Assembly (NCBI GenBank): GCA_902809825.1
Contig: LR778114.1
Location: 1,240,001 to 1,304,000, forward strand
Length of the DNA: 64,000 nt
From: Candidatus Hydrogenisulfobacillus filiaventi
GTDB taxonomy: Bacteria; Bacillota; Sulfobacillia; Sulfobacillales; R501
Direction: 5' to 3'
The position numbers were made by a program, and so were the translations under genes. Of the stretch, positions 7,257-11,533 are shown in pieces. The notes under the pieces are model-generated. The model saw only the letters and a program-made list of their open reading frames with translations. It did not search any database and was not told where the DNA came from. The stretch's first letter is position 1; each line of letters starts with the position of its first letter.

Positions 7257-7283
7257 AAAAAACCCAAGCCGCAACGCTTGGGT
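7257..7283 (-). terminator. Intrinsic terminator of the TPP riboswitch
   Basis: On the minus strand ACCCAAGC and GCTTGGGT form an 8-bp stem with a 6-nt loop, followed directly by a run of six T. It lies between the aptamer and thiE, so it is the expression platform: TPP binding would favour this hairpin and stop transcription before the operon. Confidence 0.88.
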
Positions 7284-7290
7284 AGCAAAT

Positions 7291-7386
7291 GACTCGCTTC
7301 CCTTCGCTGGTATGACCCAGATCAGGTTCAAAGGGTAGGATTGTTTGCACAATCCTTCTCAGCTCGCATGAGCACCCCTAGCGTCG
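7291..7386 (-). promoter_or_regulatory. TPP (thiamine pyrophosphate) riboswitch aptamer
   Basis: The minus strand carries the Thi-box landmarks in order: AGGGGTGCTC, GCTGAGA, a variable P3 hairpin (GGATTGTGCAAACAATCC), ACCCTTTGAACCTGATCTGG and ATACCAGCGAAGGGAAGC. These are the conserved pyrimidine- and pyrophosphate-sensing loops of the TPP aptamer. A closing P1 helix forms from bases near 7381-7385 and 7291-7299. The aptamer precedes a terminator and then thiESGFO, so high TPP is expected to switch the operon off. Confidence 0.96.
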
Positions 7387-7459
7387 AGGTTATGATACCA
7401 CACCGGGCGGGGGGAAAGGGATGCGGGCGCAAATTTCCCGCCACCGGCGCCCGGGGGCG

Positions 7460-8268: not shown

Positions 8269-9321
8269 TCACGGCATGATCAGCGCCCGCGCCAGCACCT
8301 CGCGGAAGAGGGGCGCGGCGCCCGGCGGGCCGCTCAGGACCAGCCGGAAGCGGTCGCCGGCATTGGTCTGAACCTGCACCCCCATCGTCAGTAGCGGGCC
8401 CTGCCGGCCCTGAAGCTCCACCCGGTGGTCCCCCAGCCAGCGGACGCTGCCTGGCGGCAGACCGGCGGCCGCATCTAGGTGGGGATGCCCGGGGCCGGCC
8501 GGCCGGATGGTGACCACCGCCGTGCCCCCCAGGCGGGGTTCCCGGAAGGTGCCATGGCCGGCGGGAACCCATCCCGCCGGCAGCGCCAGGCCTTGCCTGC
8601 CCCAACCCGCGACCGGCCACCATCGCCAGCCCGGGGGCAGGGCCGGACGCGGGGGGCGCAGGAAGGGCAGCGTGAGCGGCCGGCCGTCCACCAGCGGCCA
8701 CCCGCCGGCAGCGGCGGTGAGGTCGTCCGGGGAGGGCACCCCCGAGATGCGGGCGGTAGCCCCGTCCGCGAGATCCAGCGCGGTCGCCTGAGCGGTTCCG
8801 GGGTTCCACATGACCACCACTCCGCCCCAGGCCACGAACGGCGGTGCGGTGACCTGGGCCGGGTCCCAGCGCCCGGCCAGGGCGGCAAAACCGGTCCGGG
8901 TGTCCACGGCCCACAACTGCCACTCGGCGGCCGTCCCCGGCAGGGGACGGGCCAGCAGGAGGACGTCGGGTCCGGTCAGACCGGCGATCCGGAGTTGATG
9001 GCGGCGCATGGTCCAGCGGTGGAGGACCCGGCCGCCGGGCCCGCGGCCCAGCCGCAGGGTCCAGCGGTCCGCGCCCGCGCCCCGCCGGCGTTGCAGGGTA
9101 AGGGGGCCCCAGGGGCCCATGGCCACGTCCATCACCTGGGCCGGCCCCACCGGTGCGGAGACGGCCGCCTGGGACGGTGCAGAACGCACCGGCCGCGCCA
9201 CGGCGGCGGCGGGAGGCCGCCCGGCGGGCCCGGAAGCGGCCCGTCCGCCGGGCACCCCGCATCCGGCCAGGAGCGGCAGGGCTGCCCACCACACCCACGG
9301 TTGCGTCCGCCTGCCTGCCAT
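8269..9321 (-). CDS. Hypothetical lipoprotein
   Basis: The 350-residue protein starts with a lipoprotein signal: MAGRRTQPW, a hydrophobic WAALP run and the lipobox LLAGC, with Cys21 as lipidated residue. A Pro/Ala-rich linker follows, then repeated beta-strand-like segments rich in W, G and V (WTLRLGRGPG, WQLWAVDTRTG, VAWGGVVVMWNPGT), suggesting a beta-propeller outside the membrane. No family is recognised. It is divergent from the ECF sigma factor, whose coupled partner gene also looks propeller-like, so it may belong to the same response. A minus-strand TATACT at 9419-9424 could be its -10. Confidence 0.7.
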   Translation of the reverse strand: MAGRRTQPWVWWAALPLLAGCGVPGGRAASGPAGRPPAAAVARPVRSAPSQAAVSAPVGPAQVMDVAMGPWGPLTLQRRRGAGADRWTLRLGRGPGGRVLHRWTMRRHQLRIAGLTGPDVLLLARPLPGTAAEWQLWAVDTRTGFAALAGRWDPAQVTAPPFVAWGGVVVMWNPGTAQATALDLADGATARISGVPSPDDLTAAAGGWPLVDGRPLTLPFLRPPRPALPPGWRWWPVAGWGRQGLALPAGWVPAGHGTFREPRLGGTAVVTIRPAGPGHPHLDAAAGLPPGSVRWLGDHRVELQGRQGPLLTMGVQVQTNAGDRFRLVLSGPPGAAPLFREVLARALIMP

Positions 9322-9557
9322 TGTGGCTGTCCGCCCTTCCGCCGCGGCGCCTGCCGCCTCGGTTTCCCTCGCACCGTTACAACGTTGCCGGGGGCCGGGA
9401 TGTCACCCGGGCGTCCCCAGTATAGCAAGGCGCGGGAGCCGGCCCCGGATCGTAACCCCTGACGGTTCCGGAACGTTTACAATAAAGATTGCAGGGGCTT
9501 GGGCCCCCGCTAGGCAGGTGACCGCCAAAGGGGCTGGGTTCAACGAGTACGCCGGAC

Positions 9558-10061
9558 GTGGAACGCGAAACCTGGTTCCGGGAGTTTGTCGACCAGTACG
9601 GGGACCGTGCCTTCCGTTACGCGTTCGCTTCCCTGCGCCACCGGCAGGAGGCCGAGGATGTGGCCCAGGAGGCCTTCCTCCGGCTGTGGCGCCATGCCCG
9701 GCGCCAGGGGACGGAGAGTGTCACCCCCGCCCTGCTGTTTCATACCCTGACCAACCTTTGCCGGGATCGTCTGCGATACCAGCGCCGCCATCCCGAGGAT
9801 CCCACCGACCTGTTGGAGACCGGCTTTGCCGACCGGCACGACAACCGGGTGGTGGAGGAAATGGCGGTCCTGGAGGCGGTCCTGCAGCTGCCGCTGCCGG
9901 AGCGTCAAAGCGTGCTGCTCTTCTACTACATGGACCGCTCCCTCAAGGACATCGCCGAAGCCCTGCACGTCTCGGAACAGGTGGTGAAGACGCGGTTATA
10001 CCGGGCGCGTCAGCACCTGAAGCCGCTGCTGGAGCCGGTGGTGAGGGAGGGACTGCTGTGA
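9558..10061 (+). CDS. ECF-type RNA polymerase sigma factor
   Basis: The 167-residue protein has sigma region 2 (residues 5-65, with HRQEAEDVAQEAFLRLWRH as the region 2.2-2.3 signature) and region 4 (residues 105-160, LPLPERQSVLLFYYMD then an HTH ending in VKTRLYRAR). It directs RNA polymerase to a dedicated promoter set. The start is a GTG at 9558; no good ribosome site precedes it, so the start is less certain than the frame. A palindrome GTTCCGGAAC at 9464-9473 and a TACAAT at 9478-9483 lie in the promoter region. Its stop overlaps the start of the next gene (GTGA), so the two are translationally coupled. No zinc anti-sigma factor is present. Confidence 0.92.
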   Translation: MERETWFREFVDQYGDRAFRYAFASLRHRQEAEDVAQEAFLRLWRHARRQGTESVTPALLFHTLTNLCRDRLRYQRRHPEDPTDLLETGFADRHDNRVVEEMAVLEAVLQLPLPERQSVLLFYYMDRSLKDIAEALHVSEQVVKTRLYRARQHLKPLLEPVVREGLL

Positions 10062-11533
10062 AACCCGGCCCGGACGACTTTCTCCAGGTCAGCCTGGACA
10101 GGGCCTTCCACCGGTTGGGGGTTGACTGGGACCGCTCCTGGGATCCGATTGCGGAGGTCCGCCGCCAGCAGCTGCACCGCCGTCGCTGGCTCACCGCCAG
10201 CACTGCGGCCATGGTGTTCATGGCCGGGATTCAGGTCTGGCGGATGACCCGCAGCGTCCCCCGCCATGAGGCCGGTACCCTGCAGGTCGCCCTTCCCTCC
10301 CTGAGCCCGCAGGTGCGCGCGACCGTGGCCCGGCTCCACGTGCCGCCTTCAGCGGTGCGGGCCTGGGTCCCGGTCTACGCCCGCTATCCCCAGGCCGCCC
10401 CCAGCGGGTTCAGCCTGGCCTTCGCCGGCCGCTTCCGCCTGCCCGACGGCCAGGAAGCCAGCGACCTCACCCTGGAGACCGATGTGCACCACCGCGTAAC
10501 GGGCGGTACCGCGTTCAATGCCGCCGGCACGCCCATCTGGGGCTTTACGGGTTCGGTCGCGGCCGGCCGGCCTATCCCCGCCGCGCCGGTGCGGGGCATC
10601 TGGGCCGGCCGGTGGATGGCGGGCGGGGCGGGGGCCCTTAATGCCTTCAGCGCCGCCGGCCCCTTTGTGTATCTGGCCGCCGGTTCGGAGTGGACCCGCC
10701 TGCAGGCGGGACGGCCGGCGTACTGGCAGACGGCCCCCTTCGCCCCTGCCGACCCCGGCCTCAGCGCCAGCATTGCCGCCCTGCCGGCCGACCCGCGCCG
10801 GGTGCTGCTGCTGGAGGAGACCCCGGCCGGACTGGACACGGGCTACGTCAGCCCCGATGGAGGCCACACGTGGCGTCCCTGGCTGCAGGGGACGGTCCCG
10901 GTCAGCGGCCTGGAGGCCCTCGGCAGACGCTTCTGGGCGGTGGTGGACGGCGCCCTGGCCACCAGCCGGGACGGCCGCCGGTTTACGGCCCTGCTGGCGC
11001 CGGATCCGCGCCGTTGGGAGGTGGCGGCCTACGCGGTCAATCCGGCCCGGCCCGGCAACCTGGCAGCGGCCCTGGCGCCTGTGACCGGGCCCGGCCCGGG
11101 ACCAGTGCTGGTAACCCGGGACGGCGGCCGCCGCTGGCACGCCCTGCCGCCCCTGCCCGTGCCGGGCATGCCGCCCTCCACCCTGACCGTCTCCCCCCGC
11201 GGCACCGTCACCGCCTTGCTGAACCTGGACCGGCCGGTGCTGGCCCGCTGGACCCCCGGCGCGGAAGGCTGGCAGCTGTGGCCGGTGCCGGGGGTGCACG
11301 GCACCCCCGGGGCAGGGACCCTGGCGGCGGCCCCCGACGGCAGCCTGTTTTACGGATCCCCCAGCGGCACCCTCTATCGGATGGGCCCCGGCCATCGCAG
11401 CTGGCGGGTGATTGCACCGCCACCCGCGGTGCGCCACCAGACCCCGCTCATCCTGGAGGCCATCGGACGCCACCAGCTGCTGGCCGCCTATGAAAGCGGC
11501 TGGTACATCTACGTCAGCGCCGACGCATCCTGA
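10058..11533 (+). CDS. Membrane-anchored Asp-box (BNR-like) protein, candidate anti-sigma/sensor
   Basis: The 491-residue protein starts at the GTG overlapping the sigma factor stop. Residues 1-43 are polar and probably cytoplasmic, residues 44-61 form one transmembrane helix, and the remainder is predicted outside. The outer part carries Asp-box motifs SPDGGHTW (265-272), a degenerate SRDGRRF (303-309) and TRDGGRRW (353-360), typical of sialidase-like or YCF48-like beta-propellers. Coupling to an ECF sigma gene and the one-helix topology suggest an anti-sigma factor with an extracellular sensor. No HxxxCxxC zinc anti-sigma motif is present, so the sigma-binding role is inference. It is not a catalytic sialidase by any motif seen. 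Confidence 0.75.
   Translation: MKPGPDDFLQVSLDRAFHRLGVDWDRSWDPIAEVRRQQLHRRRWLTASTAAMVFMAGIQVWRMTRSVPRHEAGTLQVALPSLSPQVRATVARLHVPPSAVRAWVPVYARYPQAAPSGFSLAFAGRFRLPDGQEASDLTLETDVHHRVTGGTAFNAAGTPIWGFTGSVAAGRPIPAAPVRGIWAGRWMAGGAGALNAFSAAGPFVYLAAGSEWTRLQAGRPAYWQTAPFAPADPGLSASIAALPADPRRVLLLEETPAGLDTGYVSPDGGHTWRPWLQGTVPVSGLEALGRRFWAVVDGALATSRDGRRFTALLAPDPRRWEVAAYAVNPARPGNLAAALAPVTGPGPGPVLVTRDGGRRWHALPPLPVPGMPPSTLTVSPRGTVTALLNLDRPVLARWTPGAEGWQLWPVPGVHGTPGAGTLAAAPDGSLFYGSPSGTLYRMGPGHRSWRVIAPPPAVRHQTPLILEAIGRHQLLAAYESGWYIYVSADAS

Follow-up and report, generated by a model that had tools for sequence, protein, structure and literature searches.

What does a membrane protein with an outer Asp-box domain do for an ECF sigma factor whose gene overlaps its own, and does the lipoprotein gene that diverges from the pair belong to the same system? 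The question arises from a stretch of 64,000 nucleotides, here called the window, in the complete genome (2.57 Mb) of Candidatus Hydrogenisulfobacillus filiaventi. Its relatives are the Sulfobacillales, acid-loving bacteria of a spore-former lineage that are used in bioleaching. An initial annotation read the locus as a sigma system with a non-zinc (non-ZAS) anti-sigma factor and an outer propeller, and that reading is supported by the predicted propeller fold and by the conservation of the two genes as a pair. Here we propose, with a probability of roughly 80%, that these genes encode a cell-envelope switch made of an ECF sigma factor and its anti-sigma factor, in which a short non-zinc anti-sigma segment is joined to a propeller sensor.

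The sigma factor gene lies on the forward strand at 9558..10061 and encodes a protein of 167 amino acids, whose Pfam matches are Sigma70_r2 (2.3e-12) and Sigma70_r4_2 (4e-14). With sigma2 and sigma4 present and sigma3 lacking, the product has the domain composition of an ECF factor, and in the relatives its orthologues, which are 55-67% identical to it, sit immediately 5′ of the propeller gene. The TGA stop codon of the sigma gene overlaps the GTG start codon of the next open reading frame (10058..11533), forming the sequence GTGA just as first annotated. An overlap of this kind, either ATGA or GTGA, is found in nearly all genomes of one family (f3) as well as in the window genome. Another arrangement was seen at four loci of genus g2 (L136-L139; G001, G011, G009, G007), where sigma and anti-sigma lie in one frame with a TAG and then a CTG between them; the codons 3′ of the TAG are conserved, which would be compatible with read-through or with a CTG start codon that follows a GGAGG-like site. 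Elsewhere in the window, a TPP riboswitch (7282-7389, reverse strand; Rfam RF00059, 74.9 bits) stands beside thiamine-type genes.

The second gene of the pair (10058..11533, forward strand) encodes a membrane-anchored propeller protein of 491 amino acids, which is the predicted anti-sigma factor. Its layout is visible in the sequence as the initial annotation had described it: a cytoplasmic lead of 43 residues (10058..10186), a single transmembrane helix at about residues 44-63 (10187..10246), and an outer domain that carries two good Asp-boxes and a degenerate third, all on the forward strand. The good boxes, SPDGGHTW (residues 265-272; 10850..10873, forward strand) and TRDGGRRW (residues 353-360; 11114..11137, forward strand), each contain a Trp that is invariant in the family, and the degenerate box is SRDGRRF at residues 303-309. 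The AlphaFold model, built with 37 sequences, has a mean pLDDT of 85.5 and a pTM of 0.79; it consists of helices at residues 7-19 and 30-63, the latter at low pLDDT, followed by a membrane-proximal outer beta domain at about residues 84-177 (10307..10588, forward strand) and a propeller at residues 178-489 (10589..11524, forward strand), with pLDDT mostly above 90 in the two outer parts. The best Foldseek match is YCF48 (TMt 0.73), VIA aligns residues 181-489 with seven-bladed WD40 proteins at a Z of about 22, and the sequence profile of the family finds YCF48 at 2.3e-5. Because the model, both structure searches and the profile agree, a seven-bladed, YCF48-like Asp-box propeller is well supported as the predicted fold of the outer domain, for which the initial annotation had proposed a beta-propeller.

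If the protein does hold the sigma factor, the part predicted to do so is the cytoplasmic lead. The helices at residues 7-19 and from residue 30 shape this segment in the model, where pLDDT is about 50-75, and the family motif across it is G..LDRAL..-LGLxF...WHP...R. In alignments of 34-37 sequences D14 and P30 are invariant and G10 is near-invariant; the window lead keeps the Asp, the Arg-Ala and the Pro, and has no Gly at the position of G10. The motif is kept even though this segment is intracellular and apart from the propeller. The earlier remark that a zinc anti-sigma motif is missing holds good, as the window protein contains no Cys and no HxxxCxxC, and the leads of the relatives also lack the motif. 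Nor does the lead have the length of a class I anti-sigma domain, with only 43 residues before the membrane helix compared with about 100 residues (101 +/- 33) in that class (PMC7406223). It does have the size of a class II (CnrY-type) domain, being shorter than 50 residues with two helices predicted in this lower-confidence part of the model. A profile of the lead matched no anti-sigma factor among solved structures, CnrY included, an absence that is not proof.

The pairing of the two genes is a property of the order rather than of this one genome. The sigma/propeller pair is present in 40 of the 42 Sulfobacillales genomes, bearing out the co-conservation expected of a working pair, and the two genomes without it are 61% and 71% complete. 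In nearly all loci the propeller gene is directly 3′ of the sigma gene. The 491-residue protein is absent from all 19 of the other genomes of the same class, and a phylum-wide draw of 299 genomes, in which no more than five candidates per genome were scored, gave matches in members of the order only. Since the pairing is conserved across the order, the pair at this locus is not a matter of chance.

Pairing, overlap and a conserved tail would, however, fit a positive partner as well as a negative one: the propeller protein might recruit the sigma factor to the membrane or protect it there, and be required for its activity. We consider this highly improbable. Most of the sigma genes that come closest outside the order, in the Bacillales, precede zinc-type anti-sigma genes, whose products have their membrane helix near residue 88, and it is established knowledge that single-pass membrane proteins encoded just 3′ of ECF genes are inhibitors as a rule. 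An inhibitory role for the propeller protein is the reading that we carry forward.

A promoter was predicted 5′ of the pair at 9452..9479 on the forward strand, with GTAACC as the -35 element, a spacer of 16 nucleotides (N16) and CGTTTA as the -10 element; it is the window genome's own match to a conserved element. Of 39 loci, 36 carry the pattern GTAACC-N16-CGTT at a distance of 63-106 nucleotides 5′ of the sigma start, a count that includes one N15 spacer; the strict N16 form was found in 35 of the 39 against a mean of 0.035 in shuffled sequence. Such conservation suggests that the sigma operon is autoregulated through an ECF-type promoter that its own sigma factor would read; against this, other ECF factors of these genomes could share the promoter.

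The same element reaches well beyond the operon. Across the 42 genomes of the order the pattern TGTAACC-N16-CGTTA gave 109 sites, compared with 12 for the reversed pattern, and these sites mostly precede genes for lipoproteins, secreted Asp-box proteins and wall enzymes. The 68 non-sigma targets of at least 100 residues were compared with a background of 252 ORFs, a simple set of non-overlapping reading frames from the same loci. A lipobox is present in 18 of the 68 targets and 4 of the 252 background ORFs (Fisher p 4e-10), an N-terminal hydrophobic segment in 55 and 58 respectively (p 3e-18) and an Asp-box in 14 and 1 (p 2e-9), where all three p values are too small because related genomes are not independent, and the simplicity of the background calls for caution as well. 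Domains recognized among the targets include PG_binding_1 with a weak YkuD match, LytR_cpsA_psr, class B PBP and acyltransferase 3, and further DUF459/GDSL, Beta-lactamase2, GH84 and YCF48/BNR. In the window genome, whose regulon was drawn by pattern search only, a relaxed pattern gave 14 sites compared with 5 in the control, and as the sites appear only with this relaxed pattern, single targets there are uncertain. Among these sites, the ones 5′ of three lipoprotein genes and of genes for a PAP2 phosphatase and a class A PBP fit the envelope theme, and one of the three lipoproteins falls into a cluster with targets from two other genomes.

Several groups of targets recur in their own right. 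Many secreted Asp-box proteins to which no function is assigned lie behind a promoter of this sigma type (L193, L196, L213, L215, L221, L249 and others). Secreted proteins or lipoproteins of one family, whose start resembles 'F..V..QAM', also recur behind the promoter (L186, L194, L199, L158, L160 and relatives, with L144 and L150 in the window genome), and the members scanned had no Pfam match. In genus g6 the most repeated conserved target (L157, L161, L156 and relatives) is a membrane protein that combines a peptidoglycan-binding domain with a weak match to an L,D-transpeptidase.

The content of the regulon also bears on a different explanation of the propeller protein, namely that it is a co-expressed factor for envelope assembly or a chaperone, similar to YCF48 in the assembly of photosystem II, while the sigma factor is controlled by its expression alone. 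The nearest fold is indeed that of an assembly factor, and with other secreted Asp-box proteins in the regulon the propeller protein could be one more of these that happens to sit in the operon. We find this unlikely, as it has to contend with the one-to-one pairing with the sigma gene throughout the order, with the translational overlap of the two genes, and with a strongly conserved cytoplasmic lead whose invariant residues would be superfluous in a chaperone that acts only outside the cell.

The divergent gene at 8269..9321 on the reverse strand, with its lipobox LLAGC, is present in the sequence as annotated, but of two further points about its product one is not confirmed and the other needs correcting. 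The first was that the body of the lipoprotein looks like a beta-propeller. Its model, built with nine sequences, reaches a mean pLDDT of only 62; in VIA the C-terminal 120 or so residues (230-350) align with PsbP-type folds at a Z of about 10, and blade-like strands, with VIA alignment to parts of propellers, lie in the N-terminal half of this low-confidence model, which is too weak to say whether the protein is a propeller. The second counted the lipoprotein into the sensing system, of which it is not a core part. Homologues that diverge from the sigma gene were found in the window and at eight other loci of the order, and one more full-length relative lies at the end of a contig in another genome (G036). 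The lipoprotein adjoins the sigma gene in only about 10 of the 42 genomes; elsewhere there are only weak matches to its C-terminus. Beside the sigma gene of one further genome lies a decayed copy in two pieces with stops (L284, L291; G027:C31:18869-19526), which points to loss in that lineage.

The lipoprotein is instead a likely member of the regulon, since copies of the promoter with N16 spacing face it on the opposite strand in eight of the nine loci that bear it. The copy in the window, GTGACA-N16-CGTT at 9381..9406 on the reverse strand, is a weak one; stronger copies with identical spacing face the lipoprotein in seven of the eight other loci. Over and above the main explanation, the lipoprotein might bind the propeller protein and so serve as a co-sensor, as RseB and MucB do with their anti-sigma factors. 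Its divergent position and matching promoter would suit that role, and MucB and RseB do head its Foldseek list (E 1.8e-4). These superpositions are poor, however, with TM-scores of only 0.15-0.18 and an rmsd near 23 on a low-confidence model, the C-terminus sides with PsbP-type folds, and the gene is neighbour to sigma in a minority of genomes and decayed in one. A co-sensor therefore seems doubtful to us, and the resemblance to RseB is kept as a lead only.

Taken together, the switch that we propose would work as follows. The two-helix lead would bind the sigma factor and hold it at the membrane, away from RNA polymerase, while the seven-bladed Asp-box propeller outside would sense the state of the envelope or a ligand. 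On a signal the anti-sigma factor would release the sigma factor, either through intramembrane proteolysis, with a site-1 cleavage followed by that of an RseP-type M50 protease, or through a change of shape, and the two routes are equally open. An M50 protease of the RseP type is encoded in the genome (match 6.7e-60), and one was found in 14 of 14 control genomes too; with such proteases near-universal, its presence does no more than make the proteolytic route possible. Once free, the sigma factor would transcribe its own operon from the TGTAACC-N16-CGTTA promoter, and along with it the genes for lipoproteins, secreted Asp-box propellers and peptidoglycan enzymes.

Should this be correct, the propeller joins a short list of anti-sigma factors that have their own outer sensor, and the lead adds another short, zinc-free way of holding an ECF factor. 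The Sulfobacillales would gain a candidate for a core system of the envelope-stress kind, whose predicted promoter and gene list can be tested, and their secreted Asp-box proteins and lipoproteins of unassigned function would be given a context. A bolder version of the proposal, on which our opinion is evenly divided, is that this is an undescribed, order-specific ECF sigma/anti-sigma lineage, whose anti-sigma segment is new, minimal and free of zinc and is joined to a YCF48-like propeller sensor outside the cell, and which controls many secreted Asp-box propellers along with wall enzymes; one propeller would then monitor an envelope to which related propellers are sent. Among the genomes of the order that were searched, all those of sufficient completeness contain the candidate switch, and it appears not to have been described: our literature search found no paper in which an anti-sigma factor is linked to an Asp-box or YCF48 propeller, although the sigma factor may already have an ECF group number.

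Among the closest known systems, the CnrH/CnrY-type pairs of class II resemble the lead in having a cytoplasmic anti-sigma part of fewer than 50 residues, two helices, then one membrane helix, and no zinc (PMC7406223, PMC4598750). By length and helices the lead resembles such a domain, whereas its sequence matches no solved anti-sigma factor, and CnrY works with a separate sensor, CnrX, while the Sulfobacillales protein carries a large propeller in the same chain. The sigma factor itself is nearest SigW among solved structures, and as in SigW/RsiW a single-pass anti-sigma factor is encoded beside it. SigW-type pairs have an envelope regulon. In the anti-sigma factors encoded next to the nearest Bacillales sigma relatives, however, about 85-90 residues precede the membrane helix and a zinc motif is mostly present, where the window protein has 43 residues and no Cys. 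RsiV and RsgI are anti-sigma factors that likewise cross the membrane once and detect the signal with an outer domain of their own, RsgI acting on SigI, which is not an ECF factor. RsiV binds lysozyme (PMC4183432) and RsgI senses substrates (PMC12203970), yet the outer domains of both are unlike the Sulfobacillales propeller. YCF48 shares the seven-bladed Asp-box propeller but is a photosystem II assembly factor, whereas the Sulfobacillales propeller belongs to a membrane protein that is linked to a sigma factor. Finally, ECF57 also ties propeller-type (WD40-like) repeats to an ECF sigma factor (PMC8999054); its repeats form a C-terminal extension of the sigma factor, while those of the Sulfobacillales lie outside the cell as part of a membrane protein of their own.
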